DNA from: Nocardiopsaceae bacterium
GTDB lineage: Bacteria; Actinomycetota; Actinomycetes; Streptosporangiales; Streptosporangiaceae
Length of the DNA: 32,593 nt
NCBI GenBank assembly: GCA_017354375.1
Contig: JAFMRC010000019.1
Coordinates: 1-32,593 of the forward strand
Direction: 5' to 3'
Part shown: piece after piece, positions 10,859 to 20,825 of the stretch
Position numbering within the stretch: position 1 is the first letter of the stretch
Layout: each line of letters begins with the position of its first letter
The notes under the pieces: model-generated
The model's input: the letters and a program-made list of their open reading frames with translations, nothing else
Told to the model about the DNA's origin: nothing
The model's database searches: none
Position numbers and translations under genes: made by a program

Positions 10859-12004
10859 CTATGGGTCACCTCCCGGATCAGCGGCCATGGCGGCCGTTCC
10901 GCAGGACCTGCGGATGATCAGCTCTAGCTGATGGACGCTGTGCACGGGCGGGAAGTCCTCGCCGCCGATCCGGCGGATCAGCAGTTCCGCGGCCTCGGAC
11001 GCCATGGCCCTGATCGGCTGGGCCAGAACCGACAGCGGCGGGTCGAGTAGTTCCGACCAGTCCGGATTGTCGACGGCGATGATCGCGATGTCATCCGGCA
11101 CCCGCAGGCCGCGGTCACGGATAGCCTTCAGGGCGCCCAGCGCCATCAGGTTGTTCGCCACTACCAGGGCGCTCGGCCACGCGGACTGCCGGAGCAGGCC
11201 CGCGACCGCCTGCGTGGCCGGATCGCGGCGGAATCCGCCGTTGACCATGATCGGGTTCAGCCCGGCGCCCTCGACCGCCGCCACATACCCTTCCTGCCGC
11301 TCGCTGCCGGTCTCCACCTCAGACCGGCCACCGACGAACGCGATCCGCTGGTGCCCGGCGTCGATCAGCCGCCGCGTGGCCAGCCGCACCGACGATGCGT
11401 TATCGGCCACGATCAGGTCGGTCGTCGCGTGCTTGAGCGCGCGGTCGATGGTGACCACCGGGATGCCGAGGCTGACCAGTTGATCGATGCTGCCATCGGG
11501 GTCCGACGGGGACAGCACGATTCCGCTTGCCCGCTCGTCGGCGAGCATCCGCAGGCAGGCCTCCTGCCGGTCGGCGTCCTCATCGGTGTTGCACACCAGC
11601 ACCCGGTAGCCGTGCCTGATGGCGAAGGTTTCGATGACCCGGACCACCTCGGCGAAGTGCGGGTTCTCGATGTCCGGCACTACGACCCCCAGGGCCTCCA
11701 TGTGACGGCGGCGCAGGTTCCGGGCCAGCCTGTTTGGGCGGTACCCGAGCTCGGCGACCGCCGCGCGCACCTGGTCCCGCAGCCCGGCGGCGACGTTCGG
11801 ATCGCCGTTCAGCACCCGCGATACGGTCGCCACCGACACCGACGCCCGGGCGGCCACGTCCTTGATGCGCACCGACTGCGACCGCGGTCGTGGCTGCGGG
11901 GGTTGCGAATGCGGGGATTGCGGATGCGGGGGTCGCGGCTGTAGTGGTCGTGGCGGCGACGGCGTGCCGACCGGATCCTGTCCCGCTTCCTCGGTTCCCG
12001 TCAT
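10859..12004 (-). CDS. LacI-family transcriptional regulator with Pro-rich N-terminal extension
   Basis: SVRIKDVAARASVSVATVSRVLNGDPNVAAGLRDQVRAAVAELGYRPNRLARNLRRR and a periplasmic-binding-like C-terminal domain. Confidence 0.96.
   Translation of the reverse strand: MTGTEEAGQDPVGTPSPPRPLQPRPPHPQSPHSQPPQPRPRSQSVRIKDVAARASVSVATVSRVLNGDPNVAAGLRDQVRAAVAELGYRPNRLARNLRRRHMEALGVVVPDIENPHFAEVVRVIETFAIRHGYRVLVCNTDEDADRQEACLRMLADERASGIVLSPSDPDGSIDQLVSLGIPVVTIDRALKHATTDLIVADNASSVRLATRRLIDAGHQRIAFVGGRSEVETGSERQEGYVAAVEGAGLNPIMVNGGFRRDPATQAVAGLLRQSAWPSALVVANNLMALGALKAIRDRGLRVPDDIAIIAVDNPDWSELLDPPLSVLAQPIRAMASEAAELLIRRIGGEDFPPVHSVHQLELIIRRSCGTAAMAADPGGDP
11894..11953. repeat. 4 x 15-bp degenerate tandem repeat in the LacI N-terminal coding region
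   Basis: ctgcgggggttgcga / atgcggggattgcgg / atgcgggggtcgcgg / ctgtagtggtcgtgg; encodes a pentapeptide Pro-rich repeat. Confidence 0.75.
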
Positions 12005-12045
12005 CGGGCTGTTCCTGTCATCTAGCTGTTCCCGTCATCGGGCTA
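11995..12045. repeat. 3 x 17-bp tandem repeat at the GH172-like stop / lacI start junction
   Basis: ttcccgtcatcgggctg / ttcctgtcatctagctg / ttcccgtcatcgggcta; contains the GH172-like stop (12043-12045) and the lacI ATG (12002-12004). Confidence 0.9.
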
Positions 12046-13134
12046 GACGATCTCCAGCCCGTCGGCGTCCGGGAGGACGGGGAACGGTCCGGTGGGCAGG
12101 GTCTGGTACCAGAACGCGACGCTGGAGATGTCGTCTTGCAACGGCAGGTAGCGACCGCCGGACCGCCAGCCGAGCGCCTGCATGGTGACCCGCAGGTCCG
12201 AGCCGAAGCGAACCGGGTCCGTCAGGTGCCAGCGGTACATTCCGAACCTGCTTTGCGTGACGTTCACGTCGCTACCATCCGGGACGAAGACCTGAGGCAG
12301 ACCGGAGTACGGGGTGGTAAATGCCTGGTAGGAATTATTCACCCAGAAATTATAAGAGCCGAGAAAATAGTCTTCGGTTCCCGTGCTGGCGATCGTCGGC
12401 CAGTCGTCGTCTCCATCCAGGTAGAACTTGAGCTCCCCCTCGCCCCACCACCCGTTACTGTTGCTTCCCCAGGCAACGTAAGTGCCGACGTAGTGTCCCT
12501 GGCCACTAACCTGATCCAGGATGGCATGGACGGACCGATATGGGAGCGGGTTGCTGCGGCGGAACTGAGCGTGGAAATACGCCACGTCCTCGGCGACCTC
12601 ACGCAGCTCGTAATTGATCTGGTAGTAGATCCGTCCCGCGCTGCCGGACAGGTTCTCGAGCGTTATCCGGCAGTGTCGGCGGAACGGCATTTCCCAGAAG
12701 CAGTTCAGCGCGCTGCCCGGGTTAACGCACACTGGCAGGGACGATACCTGCGCATGCCCGCTCCAGCCGAAGCCGCCCCAGCCGGAAGCGAAGAAATCGC
12801 CGAGCGGGCACTCGACGGAAGGCTGTTCCTGGCCGTCCCAGTAGACGCGGAGCACCAGCATGCGCCACGGGCAGCCGGCCGGCGTCAGCCAGATCTGGCC
12901 GATGACACCCGGACCCTCGATGTCCGCGAGCTCCAGGGTCACGCCGGCATCGATGTCGAAGTACGGGGACACCTTCCAGCCCCGGCCCAGGTCGCGTGCT
13001 GCCGCCGATGCCGCGCCTTCCGCAGCCTGGGCGGCCGCGCCCTTGGCGCCGGTGGGGTTCTCCGGGGAAATAGCCCGCGATCGCGCGTTCACCAGGCGTG
13101 ACAGCCCGTTGATCCCGGCCATCCCATGAGTCAT
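12043..13134 (-). CDS. DUF2961 / GH172-like protein (alpha-D-fructofuranosidase or D-arabinofuranosidase type fold)
   Basis: 363 aa; GLSRLVNARSRAISPENPTGAKG, DIEGPGVIGQIWLTP, VECPLGDFFASGWG, STGTEDYFLGSYNFWVNN, GMYRWHLTDPVRFGSDLRVTMQALGW; AAGGA SD before the ATG. Confidence 0.85.
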   Translation of the reverse strand: MTHGMAGINGLSRLVNARSRAISPENPTGAKGAAAQAAEGAASAAARDLGRGWKVSPYFDIDAGVTLELADIEGPGVIGQIWLTPAGCPWRMLVLRVYWDGQEQPSVECPLGDFFASGWGGFGWSGHAQVSSLPVCVNPGSALNCFWEMPFRRHCRITLENLSGSAGRIYYQINYELREVAEDVAYFHAQFRRSNPLPYRSVHAILDQVSGQGHYVGTYVAWGSNSNGWWGEGELKFYLDGDDDWPTIASTGTEDYFLGSYNFWVNNSYQAFTTPYSGLPQVFVPDGSDVNVTQSRFGMYRWHLTDPVRFGSDLRVTMQALGWRSGGRYLPLQDDISSVAFWYQTLPTGPFPVLPDADGLEIV

Positions 13135-13182
13135 GTGGCATCCTTGTCTGCGGCCAGTCGTGGTTTATGGCCGAGGGCACGT

Positions 13183-13194
13183 GTAATCGATTAC
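13183..13194. promoter_or_regulatory. LacI-family operator candidate O2
   Basis: Perfect palindrome GTAATCGATTAC upstream of the GH172-like gene. Confidence 0.75.
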
Positions 13195-13278
13195 TCGTAC
13201 CGGAATCGTAACGGCGCGCCGAGGCTTCGTCAAGGAAACCGAGGCTCACCGCGAGCACTGCGAGATCGGCCGCGGGTG

Positions 13279-13308
13279 TTGACACCCTCGGCGGGCGATG
13301 CCTAAAGT
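13279..13308 (+). promoter_or_regulatory. Promoter of the ABC importer operon
   Basis: TTGACA (13279-13284), 18-bp spacer, TAAAGT (13303-13308). Confidence 0.65.
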
Positions 13309-13320
13309 AATCGATTACTT
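13305..13320. promoter_or_regulatory. LacI-family operator candidate O1
   Basis: 16-bp perfect palindrome AAGTAATCGATTACTT overlapping the -10 and probable +1. Confidence 0.85.
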
Positions 13321-13350
13321 CCCACTGTCAGCCAAGGCGGTGTTAGCCGA

Positions 13351-14343
13351 GTGCAACGCCTGCGAGTTCTCCTGCGCCGGACCTTCTTTTACCTGGTCAC
13401 CGCATGGATCGCGCTGACGTTGAACTTCTTCCTGCCCCGCATGATGCCGGGGAACGCCGTCGAATCGGTGCTGTCACGGCTCGAGGGCTCGGGCCCCATC
13501 ACTCCGCAGGCGATCCACGCCATGACGCTCGCGTTCGGGCTGAAGACGAACCAGTCCCTGTTCCAGCAGTACGCCGGCTACATATCCGACATCTTTCACG
13601 GGAACCTGGGAACCTCGATCAATTACTACCCGAGTTCCGTCGGGAGCGTTATCGCCGGGAGCCTCCCGTGGACCGTGGTGCTGGTCGGCCTGTCCACCGT
13701 CATCGCCTTCGTGATCGGCACCGGCCTCGGCACGCTGGCCGGCTGGCTCAAGGGATCCTGGCTCGACGGGCTCGTGCCGTTCACTACCTTGCTGTCCGGA
13801 ATGCCGTATTTCTGGTTCGGGCTCATCCTCATCTCGGTGTTCGCCGTCGGGCTGCGCGTGCTCCCCTTCAACGGCGGGGTGGGAGACGGGATCAGCCCCT
13901 CATTCACGATGTCGTTCTTCGCCAGCGCCGCGCAGCACGCCGTGCTGCCGGCCGCCACGATCGTCGTCTCCGCGATCGGCGGCTGGCTGCTAGGCATGCG
14001 GAACATGGTGGTCAGCGTCCTGGCCAGCGACTACATCGTCCTCGCGGAGGCGAAGGGCCTGCCCCGGCGGCGCATCGTCGCCGCCTACGTGGCCAGGAAC
14101 GCCATCCTGCCGAGTGTGGCGGGCTTCGCGCTGGCGCTCGGGTTCGTGGTAGCGGGATCGATCGTCACCGAGGTCGTCTTCGGCTACCCGGGTATCGGCG
14201 ACGTCCTCTACATCGCGGTGACGAGCCGGGACTATCCGCTGATGCAGGGCATCTTCCTCATCATCACCCTGGTGGTCCTGCTAGCGAACCTGCTGGCGGA
14301 CATCGTGTACGTCTTTCTCGACCCGCGCACGAGCGAGGTATAG
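13351..14343 (+). CDS. ABC transporter permease (DppB/OppB type)
   Basis: MQRLRVLLRRTFFYLVTAWIALTLNFFLPRMMPGNA...GSIVTEVVFGYPGIGDVLYIAVTSRDYPLMQGIFLI. Confidence 0.95.
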   Translation: MQRLRVLLRRTFFYLVTAWIALTLNFFLPRMMPGNAVESVLSRLEGSGPITPQAIHAMTLAFGLKTNQSLFQQYAGYISDIFHGNLGTSINYYPSSVGSVIAGSLPWTVVLVGLSTVIAFVIGTGLGTLAGWLKGSWLDGLVPFTTLLSGMPYFWFGLILISVFAVGLRVLPFNGGVGDGISPSFTMSFFASAAQHAVLPAATIVVSAIGGWLLGMRNMVVSVLASDYIVLAEAKGLPRRRIVAAYVARNAILPSVAGFALALGFVVAGSIVTEVVFGYPGIGDVLYIAVTSRDYPLMQGIFLIITLVVLLANLLADIVYVFLDPRTSEV

Positions 14344-14346
14344 CGA

Positions 14347-15279
14347 ATGACATCGGACGTCGCGGCACGGCAGGTCTCGCCGGGGATCAGCCCCCGGGAA
14401 GGAAAGACCGTCACCGGGCGCGCGATCTCGGCCCTGCGCAAATCGCGCCTGGCCACGGCGGGCGCCATCCTCGTGGGCCTGTTCATCATCATGGCGATCG
14501 TCGGACCGTACGTCGCGCCGTACAACCCGTCCGCGACGTCTGTCTACCAGCTCACGAGCCCGTCCGGACTCTATCTGCTCGGCACCACCCAGAGCGGCCA
14601 GGACGTGCTGTCGCAGCTGCTGTCCGGCGCGGGATCCTCCCTGGAACTCGGATTCCTCACCGCCGCCTTCGCGACCGTCCTGTCCGTCGTGGTGGGGGTG
14701 CCGAGCGGGTACTTCAGCGGCGTGGCCGGCGAGTCGCTTTCCTCCCTGGCCAACGTTTTCCTGGTCGTCCCCGCGCTGCCGCTCATTATCGTGATCATGG
14801 CGTACCTGCCTAACCGCGGCGTGCTGACGATGGCCGTGGTCATCAGCGTGACCGGCTGGGCCTGGGGCGCACGTCAGTTGCGAGCCCAGACGATGTCGCT
14901 CCGCCGCCGAGACGATATCGTCGCGGCCCGCGCGATCGGCGAGAAAACGTGGCGCATCATGTTCGTCGAGATGATGCCGAGCCTGCTGCCGATTATTATC
15001 TCCGGATTCCTCTTCACGACGGTATTTGCGATCGTCACCGAGGCCAGCCTGGCATTCCTTGGCCTCACCGACGTCTCCTCGTGGAGCTGGGGCACGATGC
15101 TCTACTGGGCCCAGAACGACCAGGCCTTCACCCTCGGGGCGTGGTGGTGGTACATCCCGCCGGGCCTATGCATCGCGCTCGTCGGCATGGGACTCGGCCT
15201 TATCAATTTCGGGATCGACGAACTGATAAATCCCCGGCTTAAGGTGCAGCGCAATAAGCAGAGAGGATCAGCGCGATGA
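14347..15279 (+). CDS. ABC transporter permease (DppC/OppC type)
   Basis: LLGTTQSGQDVLSQLLSGAGSSLELGFLTAAFATVLSVVVGVPSGYFSG...; EAA-like loop. Confidence 0.95.
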   Translation: MTSDVAARQVSPGISPREGKTVTGRAISALRKSRLATAGAILVGLFIIMAIVGPYVAPYNPSATSVYQLTSPSGLYLLGTTQSGQDVLSQLLSGAGSSLELGFLTAAFATVLSVVVGVPSGYFSGVAGESLSSLANVFLVVPALPLIIVIMAYLPNRGVLTMAVVISVTGWAWGARQLRAQTMSLRRRDDIVAARAIGEKTWRIMFVEMMPSLLPIIISGFLFTTVFAIVTEASLAFLGLTDVSSWSWGTMLYWAQNDQAFTLGAWWWYIPPGLCIALVGMGLGLINFGIDELINPRLKVQRNKQRGSAR

Positions 15280-16988
15280 AGCGAGGACTCTTGACTCGGG
15301 CACTGATCGTGGTGGCGGCGTGCGGGATGATGACTGCCGCCGGCTGTTCCGCACCCAAGCCGACCTCGGTCGGGCAGGCTAGCGCGGGAAACTCGGGCGG
15401 AAAGTACACCCCCATATCGGACATCGCGTCCTGCCCGAGCGGACCGCAGGGAAAGCTCAACTACGTGGGCGACATCGGCGGCCCGTACGCGCGGAACTTC
15501 AACCCGTTCACCGCGTCGGCCAACACCGCCGCGTTGCAGTCGTTCGTCTACGAGCCACTGCTGCAATACAGCCTTTCGCAGTCCCGCGTGGCCCCCTGGC
15601 TGGCGTCCAGCTACGCCTGGTCCGACGGCGGGCGTTCGCTGTCCCTCAACCTCCGGCATAACGTCAAATGGTCCGACGGCAAGCCGTTCACCAGCGCCGA
15701 CGTGGTGTTCACGTTCAACCTGCTCAAGAAGAAGCCGGCCACCAACCTCAAGGGCATCCAGTTCAGCTCGGTCAAGGCCACCGGGCCCTACTCGGTCACG
15801 ATGACGTTCGCGAAGCCCGCGTACACCCAGCTCTACTACATAGGCACGCAGTACATCGTGCCGCAGCACATCTGGGCGAAGATCGGCAATCCCAGCACCG
15901 CGCTGAACCTGAACCCGGTCGGCACCGGCCCGTACACGCTCACCAAGCTGACGACCCAGTCGCTGGTCCTGACCGCCAACCCGCACTACTGGCAACCCCA
16001 TTCGCCGTGCATCAAGACGATCGACGCGCCGCCCTATGTCTCCAACACCACGGCGGACCTGGCCATGGAGCAGGACACCGGAACCTGGGGAGGACTGTAC
16101 CTCCCCGGCATGAGCCGCTACACGAGCACTCCGGGCAACGATTACTGGAACCCGCCGACCAACGACGTCGCGCTCTACCCCAACCTCACGGAAGCGCCGT
16201 TCAACAGCCTGCCGCTGCGGCAGGCGATCAGCCTCGCCCTCAACCGGAACAAGATCGAGCAACTCGGTGAGCAGGGCGAGGAGACGCCGATCTCCAACCG
16301 CACCGGCATCATCCTGCCGCGGGACCGCAGCCAGCTCGCGCCGCGGTACGCGAAGGACGACTTCGCGCCCAGCGTGACGCGGGCCAAGTCGGTCCTGAAG
16401 GCCGCCGGCTACACGTGGAACTCAAGCGGCACGCTGCTCACCCCCGCGGGCAAGCCCGTCGCATTCTCCATCCTCGCGCCGTCGGCCTTCTCGGACTGGA
16501 TCTCCGCGGTCCAGGAGGTCACCGCGGAACTCAGCCGCCTCGGCATCAAGGCCAAGCTGGACTCGGTCCCCAACACCCAGTGGCTCCAGGACATGGAGTT
16601 CGGGCACTTCCAGATGGGGATCGAGTCGGGTCAGCTCGGCCCGAACTCCTTTTACCAGTACGACGGATGGCTCAGCAATTCGGTGCCCGTCGGCCACCTG
16701 GCCTCCACGAACTTCGAGCGTTACTCCAGCAGCAAGGCGGATTCCCTGATCAGCTCCTACCTCGGCACCCAGGATCCGGCCACTCAGAACACGGCCATGG
16801 CCGGCCTCGAAAAGATCATGGTCAACGACGTGCCGGTGATCCCGCTCTACTACGCGACGTACTGGGGCCTGTATGTCACGAAGCACATCTCCGGGTGGCC
16901 CTCGCCGTCCAACCCCTACGAAATAGCCTCGTCGTACGACACGCCGATGAACGAAGTGGTCCTGCTGCACCTGAAGTGGAAGGGCTAG
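15276..16988 (+). CDS. ABC transporter substrate-binding lipoprotein, family 5 (Opp/Dpp type)
   Basis: Lipobox-like TAAGC; LRHNVKWSDGKPFTSADVVFTFN, NPVGTGPYTLTK; ATGA overlap with upstream permease. Confidence 0.95.
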   Translation: MKRGLLTRALIVVAACGMMTAAGCSAPKPTSVGQASAGNSGGKYTPISDIASCPSGPQGKLNYVGDIGGPYARNFNPFTASANTAALQSFVYEPLLQYSLSQSRVAPWLASSYAWSDGGRSLSLNLRHNVKWSDGKPFTSADVVFTFNLLKKKPATNLKGIQFSSVKATGPYSVTMTFAKPAYTQLYYIGTQYIVPQHIWAKIGNPSTALNLNPVGTGPYTLTKLTTQSLVLTANPHYWQPHSPCIKTIDAPPYVSNTTADLAMEQDTGTWGGLYLPGMSRYTSTPGNDYWNPPTNDVALYPNLTEAPFNSLPLRQAISLALNRNKIEQLGEQGEETPISNRTGIILPRDRSQLAPRYAKDDFAPSVTRAKSVLKAAGYTWNSSGTLLTPAGKPVAFSILAPSAFSDWISAVQEVTAELSRLGIKAKLDSVPNTQWLQDMEFGHFQMGIESGQLGPNSFYQYDGWLSNSVPVGHLASTNFERYSSSKADSLISSYLGTQDPATQNTAMAGLEKIMVNDVPVIPLYYATYWGLYVTKHISGWPSPSNPYEIASSYDTPMNEVVLLHLKWKG

Positions 16989-16991
16989 GAG

Positions 16992-18023
16992 TTGACGGCC
17001 CTCCTCGAAGTCAGGGATCTCGACGTGTCCTACGGGCACGGCGAGGACACTCTGCACGCGGTCCGCGGCGCGAGCTTCAGCTTGCGCCGCGGCGAGATAG
17101 TAGGCGTGGCGGGCGAGTCCGGCTGCGGGAAGTCCACTCTGGCGTTCGCCATCGCCCGGCTGCTGCGCGGCAGCGGCCACGTCGAGGGAGGCGAGATCCT
17201 CTGGTCTGGCCGGGACCGGGAGCCGATCGACCTGGCCACGGCGGATGACGAGAGCGTGCGCCGCGTCCGCTGGTCGGACATCTCCATCGTCATGCAATCG
17301 GCGATGAACGCGATGAACCCGGTGCTCTCGCTGCGAAGCCAGATCGGCGACGTCATCAAGGCGCACGACCCGGCCGCGGGCCGACGCGAGCGCGGCCGGC
17401 GGGTCGGCGAGCTGCTGGAGATGGTCGGCATCCCGAGCGCCCGCGGGCGCGCATTCCCGCACGAACTGTCCGGCGGCATGCGGCAGCGCGCGATGATAGC
17501 GCTCGCGCTCGCGCTTTCCCCTCAGCTCGTCATCCTCGACGAGCCCACCACGGCGCTGGATGTCGTCATGCAGCGGCAGGTGCTCAGCGAGCTGAAGCGG
17601 CTCCAGGCCGACCTCGGGTTCGCGGTTCTCTTCATCACCCACGACCTGTCCCTGCTCGTGGAGATCGCCGATCGCATCCTGGTGATGTACGCGGGAACCG
17701 TCGTGGAGAGAGCCGACGCGCTTGACCTCTATCGCGCTCCGTTCCACCCCTACAGCCGGGGGCTGCTGACATCGTTCCCCAAGGTAACGGGGGTCCGCGC
17801 GGAACTCACCGGCATACCCGGCACGCCGCCGGACCTGCGCGGGCTGCCCGACGGCTGTCCGTTCCATCCGAGGTGCGCGTCCGCCATGGACGAGTGCAAG
17901 CGGGAAACGCCGGCCCTGGTGCCCCGACGCCGACCGGACGGGGAAGCCACGCCGGACGGGGAAGCCACGCAGAGCCGGGATGTCGCCTGCCTGCTGTACC
18001 AGCCGACCGGGAGGGCACAGTGA
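16992..18023 (+). CDS. ABC transporter ATP-binding protein (DppD/OppD type)
   Basis: GESGCGKST, LSGGMRQRAMIALALALSPQLVILDEPTTALDV; probable TTG start. Confidence 0.95.
   Translation: MTALLEVRDLDVSYGHGEDTLHAVRGASFSLRRGEIVGVAGESGCGKSTLAFAIARLLRGSGHVEGGEILWSGRDREPIDLATADDESVRRVRWSDISIVMQSAMNAMNPVLSLRSQIGDVIKAHDPAAGRRERGRRVGELLEMVGIPSARGRAFPHELSGGMRQRAMIALALALSPQLVILDEPTTALDVVMQRQVLSELKRLQADLGFAVLFITHDLSLLVEIADRILVMYAGTVVERADALDLYRAPFHPYSRGLLTSFPKVTGVRAELTGIPGTPPDLRGLPDGCPFHPRCASAMDECKRETPALVPRRRPDGEATPDGEATQSRDVACLLYQPTGRAQ
17934..17969. repeat. Perfect 2 x 18-bp in-frame tandem duplication in the DppD-type gene
   Basis: ccggacggggaagccacg twice, encoding PDGEATPDGEAT. Confidence 0.85.
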
Positions 18024-19018
18024 GTTCAGGCGAGGTGGTCTTGCGCGCCGAGTCGGTGAGCAAGACGTTCCGGGCGGGAAGGGGCTTCTTCCGCGGCGGC
18101 GGGCTCCACGCGGTCAGCGGCTTCTCCCTCGATCTGGTCAGGGAACGCGTGGTGGCGCTGGTCGGTGAGTCCGGTTCCGGCAAATCGACGGCCGCCAGGC
18201 TGCTGGCTGGCCTGTACGCGCCGACATCCGGTGCGATCACGCTCGCCGGACGGCGCGTCAGCGTCCGCGCCCCGGGTGCACGGCGCCGGTATGCCAGTCA
18301 TGTGCAGATCGTCCTGCAAGACCCGTTCAGCTCGCTGAACGCTTCCTACAGCATCCGGCATCACCTCGCGCGCCCGCTGCTGCTGCACGGTAACGCGGGC
18401 TCCGGGAAGCGGGCGGACGTCGAGGCACGATCGGCCGCCTTGCTCGAAGAGGTGAGCCTGACCCCCGGCCGGGACTTCCTCGACCGGTATCCGCATGAAC
18501 TATCCGGCGGCCAGCGCCAGCGAGTGTCCATCGCCCGCGCCCTCGCCGTGCGGCCGGAGGTGATGCTCGCGGACGAGCCGGTCTCGATGCTCGACGTGTC
18601 GATCCGGCTGGGAATCTTGCGGCTTCTCGGCAGGCTCACCGCCGAGCGGCGCCTCGCGCTGCTCTACATCACCCACGACATCGCCTCGGCCCGGTATTTC
18701 GCCACGGAGATCGCCGTGATGTACGCGGGCGAAATGGTGGAATACGGCCCTTCGGAAGACGTCACGCAGGCCCCGCTGCACCCCTACTCCCGCCTCCTCG
18801 TGTCCACGGTTCCCGATCCGGATCGTGCCGCCGGCCGCGGTTCCGACACGCTGGTGCGCGGCGAGCCGCCGGACCTCACGAGGCGTCTGGCGGGATGCAC
18901 GTTCGCGCCGAGGTGCCCGTTCGCGATGGACCGGTGCAGGCAGCAGGCGCCACCGCGCTTCGAGCCGAGCGGCGGGCACTGGGTCCGCTGCTGGCTATTC
19001 GACGAACAGGAGGCCTGA
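18020..19018 (+). CDS. ABC transporter ATP-binding protein (DppF/OppF type)
   Basis: GESGSGKST, LSGGQRQRVSIARALAVRPEVMLADEPVSMLDVS; GTG start overlaps the upstream stop. Confidence 0.94.
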   Translation: MSSGEVVLRAESVSKTFRAGRGFFRGGGLHAVSGFSLDLVRERVVALVGESGSGKSTAARLLAGLYAPTSGAITLAGRRVSVRAPGARRRYASHVQIVLQDPFSSLNASYSIRHHLARPLLLHGNAGSGKRADVEARSAALLEEVSLTPGRDFLDRYPHELSGGQRQRVSIARALAVRPEVMLADEPVSMLDVSIRLGILRLLGRLTAERRLALLYITHDIASARYFATEIAVMYAGEMVEYGPSEDVTQAPLHPYSRLLVSTVPDPDRAAGRGSDTLVRGEPPDLTRRLAGCTFAPRCPFAMDRCRQQAPPRFEPSGGHWVRCWLFDEQEA

Positions 19019-19020
19019 AG

Positions 19021-20825
19021 TGCCACGACGCTATTCACGACGCGAGATCCTCGGTGCGGCGGCGGGCACCACGCTGGCCATCGGCACGGCGGGGGTGGTC
19101 GCCGGGACGTCGCTGCGGAACCCCTGGATACCGGACCCGGCCGACGCCGCCGCCGCCGACATGGGCGCGGCGCATGGCACGGCAGCCGACGCGACGGCTG
19201 GTGCGGCGGCCGACGCTCCGGGCAGCACCTTCTTCTCCACCGCGTTCACCGAGTACTACGGAACCCTCGCCACCTCCAGCGATGGTGACCTGTGGGCGAA
19301 TTGCTGGGCCGACGACGGCAACATGTACGGGGCGAACGGCGATGGAAAGGGCTTCGGCGACGGGGCCGAGGCGGACGTGGTGGTCAGCAAGATCACCGGG
19401 ACACCGGAAACCGGCATCAGCGGGCAGCGGCTAGCGGCCGGCGCCGACGTGGCGAACGTGTGGGGTGACACCAGCCAGTACAACCGCAAGCCCACCGGCA
19501 TGGCCTGCGCCGACGGCGTCCTTTACCTGGCCGTGCAAGACCTGCGTTACTCCCCCAGCGCCGACGCGTTCAACGACGCGCCGAACGCCAGCATCTCGAT
19601 GTCAACCGACCACGGCACGACCTGGACGAAGACCTCCTCGCCGATGTTCACGAACGGAACCTTCACCACGATCTTCTTCCTGGACTTCGGCCAGAACGGG
19701 GCGAACGCGGTTCCCGCGCTGGGGTCGGACGACGGCCAGTACATCTACGCCTACGGCCTCGACGGCAACTGGCGCTGCTCGTACTCCGGCACGGCGCCTG
19801 ATCCGGTGAGCGTGTACCTGGCCCGGGTTAAGCCGGGCCAGCTACAAGACGTCTCCGCGTGGCAGTTCTTCACCGGGATGAGCGGCTCAAGCCCATCGTG
19901 GAGCGGCACGATCGGCGACAAGCAGCCGGTGCTCACCGACACCCGCCGCCTGTACCCAGGCCCCCTGCTGAGGACCACGGCTCCCAACAACGGCCCCACC
20001 GACTTCACCGTGATCTCGCAGGGCGGGGTGGTCTACAACGCGCCGCTGCGGCGCTACCTCTACACCTCCTGGACCGAGTACACCTTCGAGTTCTACGAGG
20101 CGCCCCAGCCGTGGGGACCGTGGAAGCTGTTCTTCAGCCACGACGCGGGCGGGTACCCGTGGTTCGGCACCGGCAGCACCGAAGGCGGCCCGAAGAACGG
20201 CGGGTACGCCGCTACCATCCCGTCGAAGTTCATCAGCTCCGATGGCCGCGACATGTGGCTCCAGTCGAACTGGTTCGTGAACGTCGCGTCCGGCGCGTCA
20301 GACTACAACTTCAACCTGCGCAAGATGCGCTTGTCCCCCTACCAGTCGTCGCAGCCCTCCAACCCCGCCGATCCGTCGAATAACATCGCCCGGACCGGCG
20401 CCAGCGTGACGCCGACCGAGAAGAGCGCCCACTACGGCAACTGGCAGTACTACAACGACGGCGACACCACGCAAAGCGAAGACAGCTGGGACAACTCCAG
20501 CAAGACCAGCGACTGGTGGGGCTACACCTTCGATACCAGCTACCACTTCGACCGGGTCGTCTACACCACCGGGACGATGTTCAGCGACGGCGGCTGGTTC
20601 TCCTCCGGGTTGCAGGTTCAGGTCCGGCAGGACTTCGCCTGGGTCAACGTCACCGGCCTGACGATATCGCCGGACTACCCGTACGACGACACCGCCGGGA
20701 CGAACAAGGCCTACACCATGACTTTCGACGCGACCTGGGGCGACGGCATCAGGATCATCGGTACCCCCGGGGGAGCCTCTACCTTCACCTCGATCGCGGA
20801 ACTGGAGGCCTACTACGCGGGGTGA
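19021..20825 (+). CDS. Tat-exported DUF4185-like beta-propeller (candidate glycosidase) with C-terminal discoidin/CBM-like domain
   Basis: VPRRYSRREILGAAAGTTLAIG Tat-type signal; DGDLWANCWADDGNMYGANGDGKGF, SMSTDHGTTWTK, SQGGVVYNAPLRRYLYTSWTE; C-terminal NIARTGASVTPTE...STFTSIAELEAYYAG. Confidence 0.65.

Follow-up and report, generated by a model that had tools for sequence, protein, structure and literature searches.

Which polymer is served by a gene cluster that combines a GH172-like enzyme, an exported β-propeller protein and an importer of a kind usually annotated for peptides? The question is raised by positions 10,859 to 20,825 of a 32,593-nucleotide stretch from a Nocardiopsaceae bacterium (contig JAFMRC010000019.1, assembly GCA_017354375.1; the whole stretch is referred to as the window). 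The original prediction, made from the sequence alone, described a glycan-scavenging locus directed at arabinan or fructan. Our analysis points to D-arabinan, the polymer that typifies mycobacterial cell walls, for which genes encoding cutting enzymes were identified only in 2023. We consider it probable that the cluster is a D-arabinan utilization locus in which the propeller would cut the polymer outside the cell, the Opp-type system would import the fragments, the GH172 enzyme would finish them inside and a LacI-family repressor would control both arms.

GH172 and the exported propeller

The substrate prediction starts from the GH172 enzyme. Its assignment to DUF2961, and hence GH172, was borne out by a profile search (301 bits against a Pfam cut-off of 27), and its catalytic pair, Glu232 and Glu254, is kept and is invariant in an alignment of 35 GH172 sequences; Al-Jourani et al. 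identified the catalytic residues of DgGH172c as a pair of conserved glutamates (PMC10115798). The top Protein Data Bank (PDB) match is ExoMA1 from Microbacterium arabinogalactanolyticum (8ic8, E 7e-124), a proven exo-α-D-arabinofuranosidase. According to Shimokawa et al., the choice between arabinofuranose (Araf) and fructofuranose is set by Asn253 of ExoMA1, and αFFase1, a difructose dianhydride enzyme, has Gly299. Asn262 occupies the Asn253 position in the window enzyme, and asparagine is found there in all 24 ExoMA1-type sequences, which also keep both glutamates; the other GH172 type in the compared loci has a gap at this column of the 35-sequence alignment, which offers no informative contrast there. 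The enzyme had been described as leaderless-looking, and indeed no signal peptide was seen, with an alternative ATG start at 13122.

These features bear on the fructan half of the original prediction, under which the target would be levan, inulin or difructose anhydride, the GH172 enzyme an α-D-fructofuranosidase and the propeller a protein acting on fructan. The GH172 family does hold αFFase1 with its difructose dianhydride activity, β-propeller fructanases are among the weaker Foldseek matches of the propeller, and GH32 genes occur in some loci of related solute-binding proteins (SBPs). However, the window enzyme is much nearer to ExoMA1 than to αFFase1 (1e-39) and carries Asn262 where αFFase1 has glycine, Pfam found no GH32 in the window cluster, and the propeller clade recurs with parts of D-arabinan polysaccharide utilization loci (PULs). 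On sequence grounds D-arabinan is a well supported predicted substrate and fructan an unlikely one, and we assign the complete fructan explanation only a very small probability.

The propeller resembles GH183 remotely. The full-length protein gave no Pfam match to DUF4185 at E ≤ 1e-3, whereas residues 1–462 alone exceeded the PF13810 cut-off of 39.5 bits (42.5 bits; 42.3 bits in a genome search), so that the predicted DUF4185/GH183 assignment held for the isolated propeller and not for the whole protein. At the sequence level, the PDB gave no match, or just short Asp-box matches to sialidases, whether queried with the propeller by itself or with profiles of 3 and 41 sequences. An AlphaFold2 model of the propeller built from 41 homologues (mean pLDDT 93.8, pTM 0.93) had the endo-D-arabinanase EndoMA1 as its top PDB match in Foldseek (8ic1, E 1.2e-19), as the original prediction would lead one to expect; M. 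tuberculosis AraH2 (8an0) and BACOVA_04882 (4hbs) appeared at lower ranks, together with sialidases and GH43/GH32 propellers. As EndoMA1 comes first in the full-fold search, we discarded a sialidase interpretation. By this fold match the protein is predicted to share the 5-bladed propeller of EndoMA1; TM-scores against 8ic1 over two domains were modest (0.46–0.51), probably because two domains were aligned together. The C-terminal domain gave a weak, sub-threshold F5/8-type-C-like match, and the N-terminus reads as a twin-arginine translocation (Tat)-type SRREIL motif.

Asp90 and Asp108 of the propeller are invariant in 41 of 41 homologues. Their spacing of 18 residues equals that of D33/D51, the nucleophile and acid/base pair of EndoMA1. 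Both residues line up with this pair in two alignment modes, and a third displaces D33 by a few columns; Arg252 is also conserved. Together, fold and residues support placing the protein as a remote, divergent DUF4185/GH183 member of the clade of M. arabinogalactanolyticum MIAR_33220, with predicted endo-D-arabinanase activity.

The propeller clade and its neighbourhoods

A scan of genome contigs yielded 80 named loci of the propeller clade, whose neighbourhoods were mapped with tblastn and a codon-based gene caller in place of an open-reading-frame map that was too noisy at high G+C content. ExoMA1-type GH172 genes were present in 23 of the 80 loci, both CUT1 permeases in 42, an isomerase or kinase in 16 and another GH183 gene in 19, counts that include many relatives (Kribbella, Streptomyces, Nocardia and Microbacterium) and are uncorrected for relatedness. 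Hosts comprise actinobacteria (Streptomyces, Kribbella), Firmicutes (Paenibacillus), Archangium and others. In the window's own genome (580 contigs, 5.64 Mb, 86.9% complete), a genome-wide profile search found GH172 at two loci and gave three matches to DUF4185, of which two exceed the cut-off. Since such loci are few in the genome and the same pairing occurs in many unrelated genomes, the pairing of GH172 and propeller is not attributable to chance. The additional loci outside the window encode a second DUF2961 protein of around 1,100 amino acids and two more DUF4185-type matches, at 210 bits and 37 bits (below cut-off); the three are labelled G000 C324 (L024), G000 C109 (L025) and G000 C529 (L023).

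Among 397 genomes of the phylum, including that of the window, there was one further strong GH172 gene, beside a CUT1 importer. The propeller was not found in seven same-genus genomes; in one same-genus genome GH172 is split over two contigs, with no cluster around it, and no relative was found in viral contigs and phage records. In loci of Candidatus Avimonas, which has a GH172 grouping with that of the window, an SBP_bac_1 protein lies nearby (L061). In six Nocardia loci (L026, L027, L028, L032, L033 and L034), a propeller-clade gene occurs with neither GH172 nor a transporter close by; because the walls of Nocardia contain D-arabinan, these members may serve to remodel the cell's own wall. 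The propeller gene of L005/L018 (G062 C15) appears frame-shifted just past the first catalytic Asp motif, through an assembly error or as a pseudogene.

In M. arabinogalactanolyticum JCM9171 (L102), PDB-chain matching placed the clade homologue (L102:10025–11122) between ExoMA1 and EndoMA1, which by locus-tag order makes it MIAR_33220. Both D-arabinose and mycobacterial wall extract raised expression of the GH183 genes of this locus more than 10-fold (PMC10509167). The same study reported that the D-arabinan PULs of further species of Microbacterium have no MIAR_33220 homologue; contrary to this, we observed 65–93% identical proteins adjoining GH172 in several Microbacterium loci (L083, L092, L097, L098, L099, L100 and L104). 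The MIAR_33220 identity rests on gene order, and a naming mix-up is possible. The predicted mature MIAR_33220 (around 37.7 kDa, isoelectric point 4.27) roughly matches the size and isoelectric point used in PMC10509167 to seek a purified native endo-D-arabinanase, and may be that enzyme.

Importer, operators and proposed function

By Pfam, the cluster encodes a complete Opp/Dpp part set: an SBP_bac_5 protein, two permeases and two oligo_HPY ATPases. The top PDB sequence matches of the SBP are mostly sugar binders, including the chitin-oligosaccharide SBP 1zty and the mannoside SBP 4pfu; several top entries were deposited under 'peptide' names, and classical peptide binders were far weaker. Its closest homologues in the class are at most 38% identical. 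Inspection of the 20 nearest SBP loci in the class showed Opp genes, frequently accompanied by glycosidases and by genes of LacI or ROK type. Among ten neighbours of SBP relatives examined with Pfam, nine were carbohydrate-related (two GH1, GH32, GH35, GH4, GH3, GH9, NamZ and a glycoamylase-like protein) and one was a collagenase, a tally that constitutes support and not an enrichment test because the ten were picked by eye. The glycosidase context of the SBP relatives and the PDB matches favour import of oligosaccharides by the window system. A Thermotoga cellulose-binding SBP is cited as being adapted from the oligopeptide-binding fold, and the literature searched on Opp-type sugar importers yielded nothing tying Opp to D-arabinan. 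The original prediction pointed out that the transporter family is usually annotated as peptide/nickel; the importer is indeed unusual for a D-arabinan locus, where CUT1 is the rule, but not as strange as this would suggest, since close relatives of it are themselves linked to glycosidases.

The Opp system could instead be a peptide or muropeptide transporter that merely shares an operon with two glycosidases. This would accord with the usual annotation of SBP_bac_5 systems and with the occurrence of some relatives beside NamZ and a PIG-L-type gene, which suggests uptake of muropeptide sugars. Even those NamZ-linked relatives sit with glycosidases, however, and the window importer forms one tight transcription unit with the propeller; with sugar-binding SBPs among the best PDB matches and classical peptide SBPs far behind, we regard a peptide importer as highly improbable. 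In L144 and L151, SBP_bac_5/Opp operons adjoin PIG-L/GNAT-like genes and a NamZ-type exo-N-acetylmuramidase, which Pfam confirmed in L144; this suggests that the importer clade includes a variant for muropeptide-sugar uptake.

The two operons diverge from a 216-bp spacer in which the perfect palindrome GTAATCGATTAC occurs twice, at 13183–13194 and 13307–13318. These are its only sites in the 5.64-Mb genome even when one mismatch is allowed. The first copy lies inside a 20-bp near-palindrome, ACGnGTAATCGATTACnCGT. In L053 and L058, too, a palindrome with a AATCGATT core precedes GH172, as does the 10-bp AAATCGATTT in L061; none was found upstream of GH172 in L102, L098 and several others. We infer that the window LacI binds the two palindromes as operators.

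In the preferred D-arabinan scheme, the GH183-like propeller would leave the cell via Tat and cleave α-linked D-arabinofuranan to oligosaccharides, its target being the arabinogalactan or lipoarabinomannan found in walls of the Mycobacteriales type, or else a different D-Araf polymer. The lipid-anchored SBP_bac_5 protein would capture the oligosaccharides, OppBCDF would bring them in, and the cytoplasmic GH172 would strip terminal α-D-Araf units; LacI on the two GTAATCGATTAC operators would repress both arms until a D-arabinose-related inducer is present. The flow from exported endo-enzyme through ABC import to cytoplasmic GH172, already sketched in the original prediction, matches the pathway proposed for M. 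arabinogalactanolyticum (PMC10509167). The family assignments and the enzyme pairing on which the scheme is built are strongly supported; the enzymatic activities, the SBP ligand, LacI–operator binding, the inducer and what becomes of free D-arabinose are what we infer within it.

Several observations weigh against this function. EndoMA1 Glu243 corresponds to Gln334 of the propeller in three MAFFT modes (hhalign gives a gap), and the E243A and E243Q variants of EndoMA1 are nearly inactive. The 86.9% complete genome yielded no GH116 exo-β-D-arabinofuranosidase (a Pfam control matched in Synechococcus) and, in a search without a positive control, no PUL-type D-arabinose isomerase; two of the empty GH116 and isomerase searches lacked a positive control. 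The best FGGY kinase homologue is 33% identical and lies elsewhere in the genome. MIAR_33220, whose function was called elusive, was insoluble (PMC10509167). Of the 80 clade loci, 27 have no scored PUL part nearby, and a single one, L039 of Paenibacillus sp. Root444D2, has an Opp system, without GH172; set against the CUT1 count, this makes the window unusual in its transporter. In L039 (9890–21288), a two-component-like pair and the Opp-type importer lie downstream of the propeller-clade gene, on its strand; this second association of the clade with Opp involves a distant SBP (around 23%).

The replaced carboxylate does not settle the matter. In DgGH4185b of Dysgonomonas a comparable Glu mutant kept activity (PMC10115798), so Gln334 does not exclude catalysis, yet it marks the clade as divergent, and we did not take the third carboxylate as defining GH183 because it is dispensable there. 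The catalytic acidic residues are thus kept in part, with the Asp pair intact and the third carboxylate lost. The Gln-containing clade might have shifted in specificity towards another D-Araf glycan, such as decorated pili, lipopolysaccharide or other actinobacterial D-arabinans. Glutamine replaces Glu243 in 40 of 41 clade members, the clade is present in Streptomyces, Paenibacillus and Kribbella, and some GH183 enzymes also cut pilin oligosaccharides of P. aeruginosa PA7 (PMC10115798). MIAR_33220, however, is part of a locus for the degradation of lipoarabinomannan and arabinogalactan and is induced together with it, and we judge such a shift unlikely. A bolder extension of the D-arabinan reading, which we offer as speculative and rather unlikely, is that MIAR_33220-type propellers, with Gln in place of the third carboxylate, make up a functionally separate subfamily of GH183 that has a cleavage preference of its own, coupled in the window to an Opp system taking longer or branched D-arabino-oligosaccharides than CUT1, so that GH116 would not be needed.

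Gene order and strands agree with those first described (Table 1), a leftward lacI–GH172 operon and a rightward oppB–oppC–SBP–oppD–oppF–GH183-like operon whose junctions are +3, −4, +3, −4 and +1 nt, and Pfam agrees with the family names LacI, DUF2961, BPD_transp_1 (two permeases), SBP_bac_5 and ABC_tran plus oligo_HPY (two ATPases). One coordinate changed: the propeller gene ends at 20825 as described, and its start is the GTG at 19020, the frame at 19021 having been dropped for its stops. Cluster genes have 65–70% G+C, in a window of 68.7%. Gene calls and Pfam showed no link of the flanking genes (MgtC-like, SAM methyltransferase and others) to the cluster.

Table 1. Genes and candidate operators of the cluster, with window coordinates
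Feature	Position	Strand	Evidence or remark
lacI, LacI-family transcriptional repressor	10859..12004	-	Pfam LacI 3e-17, Peripla_BP_3 3e-35; DNA-binding domain from ~residue 45
GH172 (DUF2961), ExoMA1-type, predicted exo-α-D-arabinofuranosidase	12043..13134	-	PF11175 6e-90; PDB 8ic8 7e-124
Palindrome GTAATCGATTAC, candidate LacI operator 1	13183..13194	.	~48 nt upstream of GH172 start
Palindrome AAGTAATCGATTACTT, candidate LacI operator 2	13305..13320	.	~30 nt upstream of oppB
OppB/DppB-type permease, GTG start	13351..14343	+	PF00528 9e-36; Opp2B/Opp4B NCBIfam below cut-off
OppC/DppC-type permease	14347..15279	+	PF00528 1e-16, OppC_N 2e-10
SBP_bac_5 solute-binding lipoprotein, lipobox-like TAAGC	15276..16988	+	PF00496 2e-62
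OppD/DppD-type ATPase, TTG start	16992..18023	+	ABC_tran 3e-25, oligo_HPY 1e-18
OppF/DppF-type ATPase, start taken as GTG 18020	18020..19018	+	ABC_tran 9e-30, oligo_HPY 6e-19; overlaps oppD by 4 nt
Tat-exported (SRREIL) DUF4185/GH183-like β-propeller with C-terminal β-sandwich, MIAR_33220 clade	19020..20825	+	PF13810 42.5 bits

Comparison with known systems

The locus draws attention to a GH183 clade found repeatedly among actinobacteria, Firmicutes, Archangium and others, and makes MIAR_33220 function testable through homologues that may be soluble; its SBP, if it binds D-arabino-oligosaccharides, would be useful as a probe. Sugar-binding SBP_bac_5/Opp systems such as those of 1zty and 4pfu share the SBP family with the window importer and are among its best PDB matches, its nearest relatives lying in glycosidase operons; none was reported for D-arabinan in the literature searched.

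With EndoMA1 (GH183, PDB 8hhv/8ic1) the propeller protein shares the fold, the Asp pair 18 residues apart, a conserved arginine and a C-terminal β-sandwich, whereas identity is around 15% in the structural alignment, glutamine stands for Glu243 and the weak F5/8C-like match suggests a different C-terminal domain. The likeness of the GH172 enzyme to ExoMA1 (PDB 8ic8) extends over its full length and includes the catalytic Glu pair, the asparagine specificity residue and the lack of a signal peptide; in the 35-sequence tree, however, it groups with Candidatus Avimonas and Haloplasmataceae homologues, outside the Microbacterium branch. Compared as a whole with the M. arabinogalactanolyticum PUL (PMC10509167; L102), which has secreted GH183 enzymes, the cytoplasmic GH172 ExoMA1, a LacI regulator, an ABC importer and the propeller homologue MIAR_33220, the window has the same set of GH183-like protein, GH172, LacI regulator and ABC importer. 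The Microbacterium PUL holds four GH183 genes, GH116, an FGGY kinase and an isomerase, the window cluster one GH183-like gene and none of the other three. Where that PUL relies on a CUT1/SBP_bac_8 importer, the window has an Opp-type SBP_bac_5 system, so that a known D-arabinan enzyme pair is here joined to a different importer family.

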